This document shows positions 40,469 through 47,493 of a stretch of DNA of 64,000 nucleotides, piece after piece. The DNA comes from Anaerosalibacter bizertensis (GTDB lineage: Bacteria; Bacillota; Clostridia; Tissierellales; Sporanaerobacteraceae): the NCBI RefSeq assembly GCF_009696605.1, contig NZ_VULR01000004.1, positions 62,001-126,000 on the forward strand, in the 5' to 3' direction. A program made the position numbers and the translations under genes. Under the pieces are notes generated by a model that worked only from the letters and a program-made list of their open reading frames with translations, was not told where the DNA came from and did no database searches. Position 1 is the first letter of the stretch, and each line of letters opens with the position of its first letter.

Positions 40469-40729
40469 CTATCTTGGTTCTACAATTAATTTCATTGCTG
40501 TTCTTTCTTCACCGTCAATTTCAATGTCGGTAAATGCTGGTATACAAATAAGATCCATTCCACTTGGAGCAACAAATCCTCTAGCAATAGCAACTGCTTT
40601 AACAGCTTGGTTTAATGCCCCTGCTCCTATAGCTTGAATTTCAGCAGCACCCTTTTCTCTTAAAACTCCTGCTAGTGCTCCTGCAACAGAATTTGGACTT
40701 GATTTAGTTGCTACTTTTAATACATCCAT
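40469..40729 (-). CDS. spoVS: Stage V sporulation protein S, copy A
   Basis: An 86-residue Alba-like nucleic-acid-binding protein, almost invariant in spore formers (SSPNSVAGALAGVLREKGAAE, core VAGALAGVLREKG). In Bacillus, spoVS mutants fail in stage V. Copies A and B differ in 6 of 261 bases and only at residues 7-8 (Ala-Thr here). AGGAGG precedes the ATG. A SigH promoter lies ~60 bases upstream. Confidence 0.96.
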   Translation of the reverse strand: MDVLKVATKSSPNSVAGALAGVLREKGAAEIQAIGAGALNQAVKAVAIARGFVAPSGMDLICIPAFTDIEIDGEERTAMKLIVEPR

Positions 40730-40790
40730 TAAAATTAGCCTCCTATTTAATAAAATATTTTTATTTAAATAAAATACATCTCTAATATAT

Positions 40791-40817
40791 ATTCTACAAA
40801 TAATAGAAAAATCCTTT
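40791..40817 (-). promoter_or_regulatory. SigH promoter of spoVS copy A
   Basis: On the minus strand AAAGGATTT (-35, consensus RNAGGAWWW), 11-base spacer, GTAGAAT (-10, RNNGAAT). Every consensus position matches. B. subtilis spoVS is also SigH-dependent. Confidence 0.8.
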
Positions 40818-40877
40818 ATTTATAAGATATTTATAAAAATTCTGAAAAACAAGCTATATCTTAAAATTTTATTAATA

Positions 40878-40905
40878 TAAAAAACCTGCCTTTTGGCAGG
40901 TTTTT
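40878..40905 (-). terminator. Terminator of spoVS copy B
   Basis: Same ACCTGCC/GGCAGGT hairpin with TTTT loop and T-run as behind copy A, so the duplicated unit includes the terminator. Confidence 0.9.
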
Positions 40906-40910
40906 CATTA

Positions 40911-41171
40911 CTATCTTGGTTCTACAATTAATTTCATTGCTGTTCTTTCTTCACCGTCAATTTCAATGTCGGTAAATGCTGGTATACAAATAAGATCCAT
41001 TCCACTTGGAGCAACAAATCCTCTAGCAATAGCAACTGCTTTAACAGCTTGGTTTAATGCTCCTGCTCCTATAGCTTGAATTTCAGCAGCACCTTTTTCC
41101 CTTAAAACTCCTGCTAGTGCTCCTGCAACAGAATTTGGACTTGATTTTGCTGATACTTTTAATACATCCAT
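40911..41171 (-). CDS. spoVS: Stage V sporulation protein S, copy B
   Basis: An 86-residue SpoVS, 84 of 86 residues identical to copy A (Ser-Ala instead of Ala-Thr at 7-8). It has its own ribosome site (GAGGGGGC), its own SigH promoter and its own terminator, so it is a complete independent gene. The high nucleotide identity implies a recent duplication or ongoing gene conversion. Confidence 0.96.
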   Translation of the reverse strand: MDVLKVSAKSSPNSVAGALAGVLREKGAAEIQAIGAGALNQAVKAVAIARGFVAPSGMDLICIPAFTDIEIDGEERTAMKLIVEPR

Positions 41172-41323: not shown

Positions 41324-42853
41324 CTATTTAGCATATTCTACAGCTCTAGTTTCTCTAATTACATTTACTTTTATTTGTCCTGGATAGTCAAGTTCAGCTT
41401 CAATTCTCTTTACTATTTCTCTTGCAGTATGCATTATTTCATCATCATTTATTAATTCTGGTTTGACCATTATTCTCACTTCACGACCTGCTTGTATAGC
41501 ATAAGATTTTTCTATACCATCAAAAGAGTTAGCGATTTCTTCTAGTTTTTCAAGTCTTTTAATATATGCCTCTAGGGTTTCTCTTCTAGCACCTGGTCTA
41601 GCTGCTGAAATAGCATCGGCAGCTTGGACTAATACAGCTTCTACAGTTTGTGGCTCAATATCACCATGATGAGCCTCTATAGCATGAAGTATTTCCTTAG
41701 ACTCTTTATATCTTCTAGCTAAATCCACACCAATTGCTACATGCGGACCTTCTACTTCATGATCTACAGCCTTGCCTATATCATGAAGTAGACCTGCTCT
41801 TTTAGCTACTCTTATATCAGCACCTAATTCAGCTGCCATGACTCCTGCTAAATGAGAAACTTCTATAGAATGTCTCAATACATTTTGTCCATAACTTGTT
41901 CTATATTTAAGCCTACCAAGTAACTTTATAAGCTCATGATGTAAGCCATGAACTCCAGTTTCAAAAGCTGCTTGTTCTCCTTCTTCACGTATAATATTAT
42001 CTACTTCTTTTTTAGCTTTATCAACCATTTCTTCTATTCTTGCTGGATGAATTCTTCCATCTACAATTAATTTTTCAAGAGCAATTCTAGCTACTTCTCT
42101 TCTTATAGGATCAAAACCAGATAAAACTACAGCTTCAGGAGTGTCGTCTATTATTAGATCTATTCCAGTTAATGTTTCTAATGTTCTAATATTTCTACCT
42201 TCCCTTCCTATTATTCTACCTTTCATTTCATCATTTGGTAAAGGAACAACGGTAACGGTAGTTTCAGCTACATGGTCAGCAGCACACTTCTGAATAGCAC
42301 AAGAGATAATTGCTCTTGCTTTTTTTTCTGCTTCTTCTTTTGCTCTATTTTCTGTTTCTTTAATCATTATAGCAGATTCATGAACAATTTCTTTCTTTAT
42401 ATCACTTAGTAAAAGTTCTTTTGCTTCTTCAGAAGTTAATCCAGACAATCTTTCAAGTTCTTCAACTTGCTTATCGTAGAGTTCTTCTATTAAACTTTCT
42501 TTTTGTTTTAACTCTCTAGCCTTTCTAGCTATAAGTTCCTCTTTTTTTTCTAAAGACTCACTTTTTCTATCTATGGTCTCTTCTCTATTAACTAATCTTC
42601 TTTCTAATCTTTGAAGCTCATTTCTTCTTTCTCTGTTTTCTTTCTCAATATCATTTCTTAGAATATGGATTTCTTCTTTGGCTTCAAGAAGAACTTCCTT
42701 TTTCTTAGTTTCTACTTCTCTCTTTCCATCACTTACTATTTTCTCTGCTATTTTCTCTGCATTATTAATTTTACCTTCGGCTATAGTCTTTCTTATATAA
42801 AAACCAACGATAATTCCTATAGCAGCACTTATAATTAGTTTAATTGGGTCAAT
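41324..42853 (-). CDS. rny: Ribonuclease Y, with a probable ATT start codon
   Basis: The 509-residue RNase Y is a membrane-anchored endonuclease that initiates mRNA decay. N-terminal membrane segment ([14 protein letters not shown]), long coiled coil (~25-200), KH domain ([15 protein letters not shown] near 212) and HD domain ([13 protein letters not shown] near 365). The frame is open from 42871 down, but the first ATG/GTG/TTG in it is a TTG at 42448, far inside the coiled coil. ATT at 42853-42851 lies 9 bases after GGAGG and aligns with the usual MxPI start. An in-frame TAG at 42874-42872 excludes a start further upstream. Confidence 0.9.
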
Positions 42854-42862
42854 AACACAGCA

Positions 42863-42867
42863 CCTCC
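42863..42867 (-). promoter_or_regulatory. Ribosome binding site that decides the rny start
   Basis: GGAGG (minus strand), part of GGAGGTG, 9 bases from the in-frame ATT. The GTG and TTG codons just after it are in another frame and run into a stop within eight codons. Confidence 0.75.
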
Positions 42868-42930
42868 ATTTCTATTAACTTTTCAAGTTCCATACCACAT
42901 TCTCAATTAAATGATTCATGATAAAAATAC

Positions 42931-43027: not shown

Positions 43028-43684
43028 TTAATTGGGAGTGACTTTCTCTACTTTACTTTCTGTTCCTTTTAATTGAACTCTATAAGAGTTTGTACTAACT
43101 GATGATAAATGATTATTATGAGTTACCATTATAATTTGCCTATCAAACATTTCAGAAGTTCTTTTTAGAAAATCTGCAACATTAAAAATGAAATCTTCAC
43201 TAACATGTTTAGCAGGTTCATCTAATATTAATGGTCCCTGTATAAGTGGTTTATGCACCTGAAGAAAGGAAATCCTAAGCGCTAAAGAAATTATATCTAC
43301 TACGCCTCCTCCTCTAGAAAGCTCTGGCTTAGTTTTTATGATGTTTTTTCCTTCTTTTGTAATAACATAAAATTCAGCATTAGGTTTCCCGTATAATTCT
43401 TCAATCTCAATTATAAATTCCATATTAGAGTCAAATATATATTGAAGACAATTAGAAACTATAACTTCAATTTGTTTTTTTGCTTGTTCCCTTGCATATT
43501 CAGAAGTTTTTTGAAGTAATATATTGACTTTTTCCAATACTTCTACATTTTTACTAATAGTAGATATATCTGCAGAAATATCTTTTATTTGCTCTAAAAT
43601 TTTATCTCTTTTTCCAGACTCTCTTGATAAAAAGTTATTCATATATTCTATTTTGTTTTCTAAATCCGAATAATTTCCAATCAT
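43028..43684 (-). CDS. Split SbcC/Rad50-like ATPase, C-terminal lobe
   Basis: A 218-residue protein that looks like the C-terminal half of a Rad50/SbcC ATPase. A coiled coil (~5-75) leads into a lobe with the ABC signature LSRGGGVVDIISLALR (~122-137), Walker B PLILDEP (151-157) and a terminal His in MVTHNNHL near 193-200. There is no P-loop. It lies 6 bases downstream of a small coiled-coil gene and two genes downstream of the N-terminal lobe, which supplies Walker A. The two lobes probably join in one ATPase head. Confidence 0.75.
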   Translation of the reverse strand: MIGNYSDLENKIEYMNNFLSRESGKRDKILEQIKDISADISTISKNVEVLEKVNILLQKTSEYAREQAKKQIEVIVSNCLQYIFDSNMEFIIEIEELYGKPNAEFYVITKEGKNIIKTKPELSRGGGVVDIISLALRISFLQVHKPLIQGPLILDEPAKHVSEDFIFNVADFLKRTSEMFDRQIIMVTHNNHLSSVSTNSYRVQLKGTESKVEKVTPN

Positions 43685-43690
43685 TGTCCA

Positions 43691-43942
43691 TCACTTCTTT
43701 TCTAATATATCTTTTGGTAACATTTCATTAGCTTGTTTAAACAAATCATTTATTTCTTTAGTTAATTTTTCAATCTCTTCATCTAATTCATTAGGATTAA
43801 CTCCTAATTCTTTTAATTCTTCAATAATTTCTTCTTGTTGCTTGTTTAATTGTTCCAATCTTGCTTCTGCTTTATATTTTAAAGACTTAGCTTTTTCAAG
43901 ATCTTTTTTTAACACACCTAGTTCTTTTTCATAATTAGTCAT
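43691..43942 (-). CDS. Small coiled-coil protein of the Rad50-like operon
   Basis: An 83-residue protein, almost entirely charged heptad coiled coil (~1-75), interrupted near GVNPNELDEE. GGGAGG precedes the ATG. It sits between the N- and C-terminal ATPase halves. It may supply the descending arm that pairs with the long coil of the N-terminal half (inference). No homologue is recognised by name. Confidence 0.65.
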   Translation of the reverse strand: MTNYEKELGVLKKDLEKAKSLKYKAEARLEQLNKQQEEIIEELKELGVNPNELDEEIEKLTKEINDLFKQANEMLPKDILEKK

Positions 43943-43953
43943 TTCTATCCTCC

Positions 43954-45396
43954 CTAACTATAATTGTTTATTATTTCTTCTATGGTTTTATTATCTATTT
44001 TATGGAAACATACTGGACATACTTCAAATTGTTCTAATAATATTTTATATTCTTCAAGAAGTTTTTTTATTTGTAAATTTTCTTTTTCAATATTCTTCAC
44101 AGTTGAATCTAATTCAGATTGAATAAATGAAGTTTTATTTTTTATATTTGCTAGAGTTAATAAATTAGATACTTTTGTTTCAAGATTATACAAAATACTA
44201 TCTGCTTGATCTAATTTTGAGAACTTTTCCAAATAATTAAATCCATAAGTTGTCCTAATATAATTTTCATGAAATTTTTTCTTAATAGTTTTTAATTCCA
44301 TAAGTCTTTTACTATATTCATATATGCTATAAGTTTTTGATTCTACAATATCAATATTTTCTAACTTATTTACAATATTATTGTTTACTATTATATTTTT
44401 TGCTATAGATTTATAGTTTGAATTTATATTTTCTAATCTTCTTTTCTTATATACTTTATCCTCTAATTCTATAATAAATTGACTCGTCTGATTTAAATTT
44501 TTAAGGGAATTTATTATATTTACATTATAACAAATACTTTTATTAATATCTAATAAGTGCTTTCGTTTATTATTCATAAAATTATATACTTTTACCTTTA
44601 CATTTAAATCATTAGCAATATTTTCTACAACATCTACACTATTTAATTCACCAATTAACTTTTTTGTATTAGATATTTGTTTTTCTGTATCAACATATTT
44701 TAATTTTATATTTTTTAATTTCCCTACCTTTTCTTGTGATTCTTTTATTTTAATTTTTATTTCTTCCAATATTTTTACTTTTTTTTGTAGTTGTTCCAGA
44801 TAATCATATTCCTTTAAATTCTCCTCTAATTTATTTAATTGTTCCGTCAGATTTCGTTTAGATAAATTTAAGTTTCTTATATCTTTTAAAGTATCTCCAA
44901 CGGCATCGTCTACAATATGAACACCTACCAATCTCCCAATTGAATTGGCTCTTGTTGCAGTTTTTTCAGACAATAGGAAAGGTCCTTCTAATTGATCGCT
45001 TATATTTATAGAATTAGTTTGTTTGCCATCTAAATATACTTTTCTAATATTGGTTGCTTCTATTATTTCTTTAGGAACATTGGTCCCAAAGCCTTCAAAA
45101 ATTTGCTCCTTATTTTCACTGTTATAAAGATAATATAAATTTTTACTTTTACTTTTATATCTTTTTATTTTAGTATTATCATTAAATACTATAGTTACAC
45201 TACAATCATTTTCTCCTTCTCTTATGAAAAAATTCCCAGATGGTTCATTAAAAAGTGCCCATTTTATTCCTCTAATTATAGCACTTTTGCCTTGATCTGA
45301 AGGACCAACAATAACATTCAAACGTTCATCAAATTCTAGTTCTGTATATTTGTGAGATTGAAAATTTTCTAAAACTACTTTTTTAATATATTTCAT
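43954..45396 (-). CDS. Split SbcC/Rad50-like ATPase, N-terminal lobe with zinc hook
   Basis: A 480-residue protein beginning with the Rad50/SbcC N-lobe (VVLENFQSHKYTEL; P-loop GPSDQGKS at 31-38), followed by a long coiled coil (~165-455) and ending 17 residues after a CPVC zinc-hook motif (460-463). Signature motif and Walker B are absent and lie in the gene at 43028-43684. The gene stops where a normal Rad50 would turn at the hook and return. It follows the Mre11-like gene with 3 bases in between. Confidence 0.82.
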   Translation of the reverse strand: MKYIKKVVLENFQSHKYTELEFDERLNVIVGPSDQGKSAIIRGIKWALFNEPSGNFFIREGENDCSVTIVFNDNTKIKRYKSKSKNLYYLYNSENKEQIFEGFGTNVPKEIIEATNIRKVYLDGKQTNSINISDQLEGPFLLSEKTATRANSIGRLVGVHIVDDAVGDTLKDIRNLNLSKRNLTEQLNKLEENLKEYDYLEQLQKKVKILEEIKIKIKESQEKVGKLKNIKLKYVDTEKQISNTKKLIGELNSVDVVENIANDLNVKVKVYNFMNNKRKHLLDINKSICYNVNIINSLKNLNQTSQFIIELEDKVYKKRRLENINSNYKSIAKNIIVNNNIVNKLENIDIVESKTYSIYEYSKRLMELKTIKKKFHENYIRTTYGFNYLEKFSKLDQADSILYNLETKVSNLLTLANIKNKTSFIQSELDSTVKNIEKENLQIKKLLEEYKILLEQFEVCPVCFHKIDNKTIEEIINNYS

Positions 45397-45399
45397 TTT

Positions 45400-46383
45400 T
45401 TAATCATCTCCTAAATTCTTCATTTGAGAAGATGCAATCCTTTTTAATGCTTCTTCTTTTATATTTTCAGAAACACCTTCAGCTGTAGATACTTCCAGTA
45501 AGACTTCATTAATATCTAATTTTTCAAAATTAGTAGTTGAATCTATGGATTGTTTAAATTGAACTAATTTTTCATTTTTGAAAATAAAAGTTTCGATTTT
45601 TTCTCTATCTAATATCTCTTCTCCAGGCAATGCTGTTTCTAATGGGATAAGCTTTATATCTATATTATTATCTATTTCAATTAAAACTACCTCTGGAGTC
45701 CTTTCTATTTCTCTAAGACTATTAGTTATTCGAATTAAGCTACCTGGATTAATGAAGTATTTATTTTCTGATTTTATGATACCAAATCCTGAATGATAAT
45801 GTCCAGAAAGGGTAATATCTGCTTTAGTAGATTTTATATCATCTATTAATGTGTAGGGTATCCCTTTTATAAAGGGCTTGTTTAACAGCATACCATGCAC
45901 CATATGAATAGAATAATCAGCTTTGGGATCTACATCTTTTACAATATATTTACACAAACTATTTTTATCATCAATGTTATATGTATATGGCTGGCCTGTT
46001 AACTGTACTATGATATTATCTTTTTCTAAAAAAACCACTTCATTTTCATCTATTAAATTTATAATTTCTATAGAATTGAATAAACCTAGCATAGTTCTAT
46101 TTATAGTATGGGGGTTATGCCCATATATATCATGATTTCCACAAATCATATATATAGGTACTTCAAATTTGTTCAATATAGAAGCAAATTTACTCACAAT
46201 AGATACAGAAACATCTGGTCTATCAAATAAATCGCCTCCATGTAAAATATAATCCACATTATATTTCTTAGAAATTGATAATATTTCATAAAATTTTTTT
46301 TCTAGAGTTTCAACTAAATTATCCTTTCTATTTTTAGGTGTAGTGCCTCTTATATGTGTATCTGTAAAAAACAATATTTTCAA
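45400..46383 (-). CDS. SbcD/Mre11-like metallophosphoesterase
   Basis: A 327-residue calcineurin-like nuclease with FFTDTHIRG near 5-13, GGDLFDRPD near 48, GNHDIYG near 84, MVHGM and SGHYHSG near 195, the full phosphodiesterase metal set. Family role: the nuclease partner of Rad50/SbcC in processing DNA ends and hairpins. The start is TTG at 46383 behind AAGGGAG. It heads the four-gene split Rad50-like operon and lies right behind recA. Confidence 0.85.
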   Translation of the reverse strand: MKILFFTDTHIRGTTPKNRKDNLVETLEKKFYEILSISKKYNVDYILHGGDLFDRPDVSVSIVSKFASILNKFEVPIYMICGNHDIYGHNPHTINRTMLGLFNSIEIINLIDENEVVFLEKDNIIVQLTGQPYTYNIDDKNSLCKYIVKDVDPKADYSIHMVHGMLLNKPFIKGIPYTLIDDIKSTKADITLSGHYHSGFGIIKSENKYFINPGSLIRITNSLREIERTPEVVLIEIDNNIDIKLIPLETALPGEEILDREKIETFIFKNEKLVQFKQSIDSTTNFEKLDINEVLLEVSTAEGVSENIKEEALKRIASSQMKNLGDD

Positions 46384-46399
46384 ATATAAACACTCCCTT

Positions 46400-46439
46400 A
46401 TATTAAAACCTCCTTATAGCTATAAGGAGGTTTTAATAT
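46400..46439. terminator. 40-bp palindromic terminator after recA
   Basis: Perfect 20-base arms meeting at 46419/46420 with a CCTCC/GGAGG core and T-rich end. It ends the recA transcript ahead of the Mre11-like gene, whose ribosome site starts just beyond it. Confidence 0.8.
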
Positions 46440-46443
46440 TATT

Positions 46444-47493
46444 TTACTTATTTTTCTTTTTTTCAGGTTCAGTTACATTATCTTTCTTTTCTTTTGTATT
46501 TGTTAAACCATATTTTTCTCTAATCTTGTTTTCTATTTCTAGAGCTATTTTAGGGTTTTCTTTTAGAAAATCCTTGGAATTTTCCCTACCTTGTCCTAGT
46601 CTATGTTCACCATAACTATACCAAGAACCAGATTTATTGATAATTTCAGAAGCTGCTCCCACATCTAAAATATTTCCTTCTTTTGATATTCCCTCTCCAT
46701 ACATTATATCAAACTCTGCTTTCTTAAAAGGAGGAGCAACCTTGTTTTTAACAACCCTTACTCTCGTACGATTTCCTATTATATTGTCACCTTGTTTTAT
46801 TGCTTCTATTCTTCTTACATCTAATCTTACAGAGGAATAGAATTTTAGTGCTCTTCCTCCAGTAGTCGTTTCAGGGTTTCCAAACATTACCCCTACTTTT
46901 TCTCTTAGTTGATTTATGAATATGGCAATAGTTTGAGATTTACTTATAGAACCTGATAATTTTCTTAAAGCTTGAGACATAAGCCTTGCTTGCAAACCTA
47001 CGTGACTATCTCCCATTTCACCTTCTATTTCTGCTTTTGGAACTAGTGCAGCAACAGAGTCTACTACAACAATATCTATAGCACCACTTCTAACTAAAGC
47101 TTCTGCAATTTCTAGTGCTTGTTCTCCTGTATCAGGCTGAGATACAATAAGATTATCAATGTCCACACCTAATTTTTTTGCATAAGTAGGATCTAAGGCA
47201 TGTTCAGCATCTATAAATGCAGCAATGCCACCTCTTTTTTGTGCCTCTGCTATAGCATGAAGAGCCACTGTTGTTTTACCTGAAGATTCTGGCCCAAATA
47301 TTTCTATTACCCTTCCTTTTGGAAGACCGCCAATTCCTAAGGCTATGTCTAAGTCTAAAGAACCTGTTGGAATTACCTCAATGTTCATATGAACATTTTC
47401 CCCTAATTTCATTATAGAACCTTTACCAAACTGTTTTTCTATTTGATTTAAAGCAACATCTAATGCCTTTTGTTTGTCATTATTATCAACCAT
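46444..47493 (-). CDS. recA: Recombinase RecA
   Basis: The 349-residue strand-exchange ATPase has P-loop GPESSGKTT near 66-74, the [21 protein letters not shown]2 region (core [10 protein letters not shown] near 205) and a basic/acidic C-terminal tail. It drives recombination and LexA self-cleavage. A stop codon directly precedes the ATG at 47493, so no longer form exists. A LexA box and SigA promoter lie upstream. The Shine-Dalgarno sequence AAAGGTGG is ~22 bases from the ATG with a hairpin in between. Confidence 0.97.

Follow-up and report, generated by a model that had tools for sequence, protein, structure and literature searches.

Four genes between recA and rny

Four complete minus-strand open reading frames lie at positions 43028-46383 of the window, the 64,000-nucleotide stretch of an Anaerosalibacter bizertensis contig (NZ_VULR01000004.1) analysed here. 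The gene order on this strand, to which all window coordinates below refer, is recA (46444..47493), an Mre11-like gene, the N-half of a Rad50-like ATPase, a small protein, the C-half of the ATPase, and rny, encoding RNase Y (41324..42871). Both neighbours were assigned from their open frames and from synteny. A terminator-like hairpin (AAAACCTCCTTATAGCTATAAGGAGGTTTT, 46405..46434), read directly in the sequence, separates recA from the four-gene set. The gaps within the set are 3, 11, and 6 nt, and a plausible ribosome site precedes each gene, that of the C-half being the weakest. An earlier note on this DNA had described a compact four-gene set at this place, with a ribosome site for each gene and 17 residues following a CPVC motif in the second protein. 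Our reading of the frames, their sizes, and the motif agrees with that description.

The first gene (45400..46383) encodes a 327-aa metallophosphoesterase with a TTG start. It matches Pfam Metallophos (9e-17) and the Mre11 structure 1ii7 (E 4e-9), and the phosphoesterase motifs DxH, GD, GNHD, H, and GHxH are all present. Residues D8, H10, D51, N83, H84, H163, H195, and H197 are invariant in an alignment of 28 sequences. The protein scores 35 bits against the curated SbcD model TIGR00619, below the cut-off of 77.65. Matches to the NCBIfam Rad50 models likewise fall far under their cut-offs.

The second gene (43954..45396) encodes the N-half, a 480-aa protein made of an ATPase N-lobe, a repeat arm, and a C-terminal zinc hook. 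It matches Pfam AAA_23 (3e-15), PHROG 16465 (E 8e-70), and the N-half of Rad50 in the PDB (E 5e-11). The Walker A motif GPSDQGKS spans residues 31-38 (G31-S38, 45283..45306), with G31, G36, and K37 invariant in the alignment, and the Q-loop is at Q135. Alignment, profile match, and predicted model all give this lobe the Rad50 fold. Near the other end, the CPVC motif (residues 460-463, 44008..44019) stands 17 residues before the stop. C460, P461, and C463 are invariant in 26 sequences, and over positions 414-479 the profile resembles the solved Rad50 hooks 1l8d and 6zff (E 2.5e-4). The N-half thus carries a CxxC hook at the tip of its arm, and zinc binding is predicted.

The third gene (43691..43942) encodes a small helical subunit of 83 aa, with two predicted helices flanking a break that is conserved in the alignment as GVxPxxLxxEI (PHROG 18563, E 2e-9). 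The fourth (43028..43684) encodes the 218-aa C-half, which begins with a helix of ~80 residues and continues with the signature, Walker B, and H-loop. It aligns with its relatives and matches PHROG 15167 (E 1.5e-61) and the Rad50 C-half 3qkr_B (E 2e-8); no gathering score was reached in a Pfam search. N-half, small protein, and C-half fall in three separate phage families. The Walker B and D-loop sequence GPLILDEPAKH spans C-half residues 150-160 (43205..43237), where L154, D155, and E156 are invariant, as is the H-loop H189. Across the aligned relatives the Walker A, Q-loop, Walker B, catalytic Glu, and H-loop are invariant.

The earlier note had given the C-lobe a signature and a Walker B, and both are there, but the signature is not of standard form. 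Aligned under the LSGGER of Rad50 is RGGGVVD (residues 124-130, 43295..43315), in which G125, G126, G127, and D130 are invariant, so that RGGGxxD stands where LSGGE is expected. Replacement of the signature Ser and Glu may alter how ATP is sensed in trans. The two lobes are encoded by separate genes in the window, and fusion of Mre11 and Rad50 into one chain is seen only in some relatives. Because it lacks both the single up-and-back chain and LSGGE, the set was not filed as Rad50/SbcC proper.

Two side observations concern the flank beyond the set. The rny frame is open for 515 codons, yet no ATG, GTG, or TTG occurs within its first ~140 codons. An ATT codon lies 8 nt past a GGAGGT; one related locus (L065) has the same layout and another (L066) also has ATT there. 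The rny start codon is likely this ATT. At 40469-41171 is a tandem pair of near-identical 86-aa SpoVS-like genes, which occur in one or two copies in most neighbours within the order.

A predicted ATPase head and an arm of repeats

In one Caloramator locus (L143) the three Rad50 genes lie in one frame, and the chain read through their stops was used for structure prediction (AF2). The alignment contained 46 rows, a single one of which joins all three parts; a first, mixed alignment had been dropped because the small protein fell on the C-half helix. The model of N-half, small protein, and C-half has a pLDDT of 78 and a pTM of 0.51. It superposes on the Pyrococcus furiosus Rad50 head with a Z of 26.5 (294 of 311 residues, 3.6 Å, model residues 2-782), and the superposition draws residues from both ends of the chain. 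Predicted structures without an assembled ATPase head would, according to the earlier note, speak against a split complex; in this prediction the N- and C-lobes assemble one Rad50-type ATPase head.

For a model of just the arm and the small protein, Foldseek returned nothing significant (best E 1.3). Their closest superpositions are antiparallel helix pairs such as the Rad50 hook 1l8d (Z 9.2, 97 residues, 4.2 Å), under the level that is trusted for helical proteins.

In a self-comparison, the arm profile of the N-half gives peaks at shifts of 47 and 94 residues, far above block-shuffled controls. Predicted arm helices are ~44 residues long and are broken every ~47 residues. Four clear tandem units (N-half residues 242-288, 289-335, 336-382, and 383-429; 44110..44673) have one hydrophobic register in common. 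A phase-coherence scan of hook distances was broad, with its maximum at 51-53, so the 47-residue unit length rests on the self-comparison and not on a distance ladder. Judged from these sequence patterns, the arm consists of at least four tandem 47-residue helical units.

This modifies the earlier picture of a ~290-residue ascending coil set against shorter partners. The coil is not continuous, but the inequality of the arms is real and general. Across members, the spacing between Walker A and the hook falls into clusters near 325, 377, 428, 474, and 530. Members differ in arm length by roughly one 47-residue unit, while the C-half helix is constant in every arm-length class, and so is the small protein (median 74-83 matched residues). 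The distal arm would therefore have no length-matched descending partner. The C-half helix and the small protein can cover part of the arm only, which leaves the distal part to stand unaided or to pair with its twin. That the hook works differently from that of Rad50, as the note had suggested, is plausible.

Distribution, separate parts, and relation to SbcC

The N-half has matches in 29 of 60 genomes of the window's order, 27 of them strong, the window genome included. A search for co-occurrence and gene order, which the earlier note had proposed, found Mre11-N-small-C kept in all 26 strong relatives (two of them pieced together from two contigs). In all 25 relatives with a contig that extends far enough, recA precedes the set; rny comes after it in 24, and the two exceptions are among the most divergent. 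The relatives include Anaerosalibacter, Tissierella, Soehngenia, Thermohalobacter, Peptoniphilus, Caloramator, Thermosediminibacter, and Natroniella. In the wider phylum the C-half occurs in 65 of 398 sampled genomes, from about 27 families, and the parts are separate in 17 of 20 fetched loci, three of these 17 having the phage gene order. A search of viral_contigs gave 80 loci, many with the Mre11 gene after the C-half. tblastn of annotated phages gave only three records for the N-half and five for the C-half.

In phage vB_BboS-125 the set has genes for Holliday junction resolvase and helicase nearby. The Mre11 gene of this phage (L033:9256-10236) carries no annotation, and an AP2-domain gene, gp33 (L033:7416-7988), perhaps a homing endonuclease, interrupts the pair of N-half and small-protein genes. 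One bacterial genome (G046) has, besides its recA-linked set, a second, divergent four-gene set (L060) with a 604-aa N-half and a longer arm; this second set is possibly prophage-borne. A tree of the C-half covers both phage and bacterial members; it is unrooted and its deep branches are weak.

The relation to SbcC was followed in the same 60 genomes. The split set is found in 27 and full-length SbcC in 24, none has both, and nine have neither (Fisher p 1e-9, a raw value without kinship correction). Within each of two families, f4 and f8, SbcC and the split set are exchanged for one another. In a class-wide sample, one of 21 split-set genomes also has SbcC, against 8.9 expected; this one, G278 of family f4, is the sole sampled genome with the split set plus full-length SbcC. 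The check for a separate full-length sbcC that the note had called for found none in the window organism's genome. The split set thus appears, from these patterns of occurrence, to stand in for the usual SbcCD repair enzyme in its hosts. The mutual exclusion with SbcC, the recA neighbourhood, and the phage recombination module indirectly support a role in DNA end processing.

Taken with the motifs and the predicted head, these patterns make it very probable that the set is a working Mre11-Rad50-type complex, with Rad50 encoded as three polypeptides, that replaces SbcCD in its hosts. A split complex might instead serve mainly in a role unlike SbcCD's, such as DNA tethering or the repair of spore DNA, and the SbcC exclusion would then be a matter of lineage only. 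The variant signature motif and the unusual arm would fit such a role, as would the presence of other systems in the window genome, which also encodes an AddA-like protein and, as another Mre11/Rad50-like system on contig C41 (L276:3062-6948), a YhaN-like protein of 910 aa paired with a YhaO-like one of 385 aa. The roles of these proteins and of the split set may overlap. Yet the exchange with SbcC inside two families and the retention of all Mre11 active-site residues make a different main role unlikely.

Less probable still is a system for anti-phage defence, with kinship to Lamassu LmuB or similar SMC-like defence ATPases. PADLOC does match the N-half to LmuB (1e-13) and the C-half to PbeC (2e-9) and LmuB (2e-7). 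But the set occupies a fixed core site beside recA across an order, it has no effector gene except the Mre11 nuclease, many phages themselves carry it, and it is mutually exclusive with SbcC.

The halves could also be joined in translation, by programmed frameshifting or stop read-through, to give a one-chain Rad50. The gaps are small (3-11 nt), and in the window the small protein and the C-half share a reading frame. However, only 5 of 132 loci have N-half, small protein, and C-half all in the same frame. Among 62 viral loci, 42 lack a small-protein gene within 200 nt of the N-half gene, and in vB_BboS-125 the AP2-domain gene lies between the two. In 10 Acetivibrio-type genomes the C-half gene has a place of its own, which in the loci read is between folD and rny, with Mre11, N-half, and small protein in one block at another place. 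With the C-half located elsewhere in these 10 genomes, frameshifting or read-through is excluded as a general mechanism. It is refuted for the Acetivibrio-type and phage members, and for the set as a whole we regard it as very improbable.

Fusions occur in some lineages. Mre11 and the N-half are fused in four viral contigs, where the C gene is separate and a recognisable separate small gene is present in three of the four. A single Mre11-N-C chain of 684-700 aa occurs in three genomes of one family (f138; L255:3501-5555, L256:4941-7043, and L257:4947-7034), without arm, hook, or small protein. No open reading frame joining N- and C-halves was found in 160 loci, and N-C fusion is limited to this arm-less form. 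Arm, hook, and small protein are, to judge from these proteins, lost together. That some lineages fuse Mre11-N or Mre11-N-C suggests that the separate parts act as one machine.

In a comparison with two relatives, dN/dS is 0.03-0.22 for all four genes against 0.06 for recA, and all four are under purifying selection. The view that the set is a working split design and no pseudogene is strongly supported by these values and by conservation of the split through the order and beyond, which together exclude both chance and decay. So is an ancient origin of the split, not confined to one strain, contrary to the recent strain-specific frameshift that the note had named as a refutation. Recent decay of a normal sbcC in this strain, which the Rad50-like head and hook motifs might have suggested, is refuted by low dN/dS and by the same split, with conserved lengths, in dozens of genera, and can hardly be credited.

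Proposed mechanism and comparison with known systems

In the working three-polypeptide complex favoured here, the N- and C-halves would associate non-covalently to form an ABC head. Two heads would dimerise on ATP, and their two arms would join through the hooks. The C-half helix, perhaps with the small protein, would pair with the head-proximal arm, and the distal arm would hold itself or pair with its twin. The small protein stays with the N-half even in genomes that have the C-half gene at another locus. Like SbcCD, the Mre11 subunit would cut DNA at ends, hairpins, or blocked ends, and the split set would take the place of SbcCD in its hosts. The phage versions may serve phage recombination or replication, like T4 gp46/47.

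In the usual view of Rad50 and SMC proteins, the chain must turn back at its tip to bring the two halves of the ATPase together. Encoded as three proteins in many clostridia and numerous phages, the split Rad50 would be evidence that its long arm and hook are possible without an up-and-back chain. A bolder reading, which we hold tentatively and somewhat doubt, is that Rad50 needs no up-and-back coiled coil at all. The hook would sit on the N-half alone, carried by an arm that supports itself and is built from stackable 47-residue helical units, with a difference of about one unit from species to species. The C-half and small subunit would be separate partners that can come from another locus, and a cell could then assemble and disassemble the head as it cannot with a one-chain Rad50. 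A widespread natural split Rad50 with arm lengths in near-unit steps puts the function of arm and hook directly to the test, and it offers a replacement for SbcCD in which each half is expressed on its own. The split also explains why these genes are labelled 'hypothetical protein', 'exonuclease', or 'ATPase'.

The closest known systems share parts of this design. Like Mre11-Rad50 and SbcCD, the split set combines a metallophosphoesterase with an ABC-ATPase head, a zinc hook, and a predicted head fold. It differs in its three-chain Rad50, its arm of 47-residue units, and its RGGGxxD signature. The P. furiosus Rad50 head crystals (1ii8, 3qkr, and 1f2t) contain the N- and C-halves as separate A and B chains in one head, a precedent for a head made from separate halves. 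Those pieces are engineered and hookless, whereas the split set is natural and keeps the hook on the N-half.

One locus, L148, on a 218,948-base contig that we take to be Bacillus phage 0305phi8-36, has a separate C-half gene downstream. Mre11/Rad50 fusions were described from that phage and from Anaerostipes, with one SbcC P-loop NTPase segment that 'was not observed' (PMC3175470). The nuclease and ATPase parts are the same, but the Mre11-N fusions seen here have separate small and C genes after them, and the downstream gene of L148 would explain the 'missing' segment.

T4 gp46/gp47 and the phage SbcCD-like families (PHROG 77 and 100) are also phage recombination nuclease-ATPases, with weak profile matches to the split set. 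T4 gp46 is one chain, and the split set has PHROGs 16465, 18563, and 15167 of its own. YhaN/YhaO is likewise a pair of Mre11-like and Rad50-like proteins, present in the same genome, but there the YhaN-like partner is a single chain of 910 aa, encoded at another locus. Lamassu LmuB is a single chain with an effector, LmuA, whereas the split set has split chains, partial LmuB matches, and a conserved locus without an effector gene. The literature searched yielded no account of Rad50 or SbcC in split form. By sequence, the split set most likely works like Mre11-Rad50, as a variant form of that machine.
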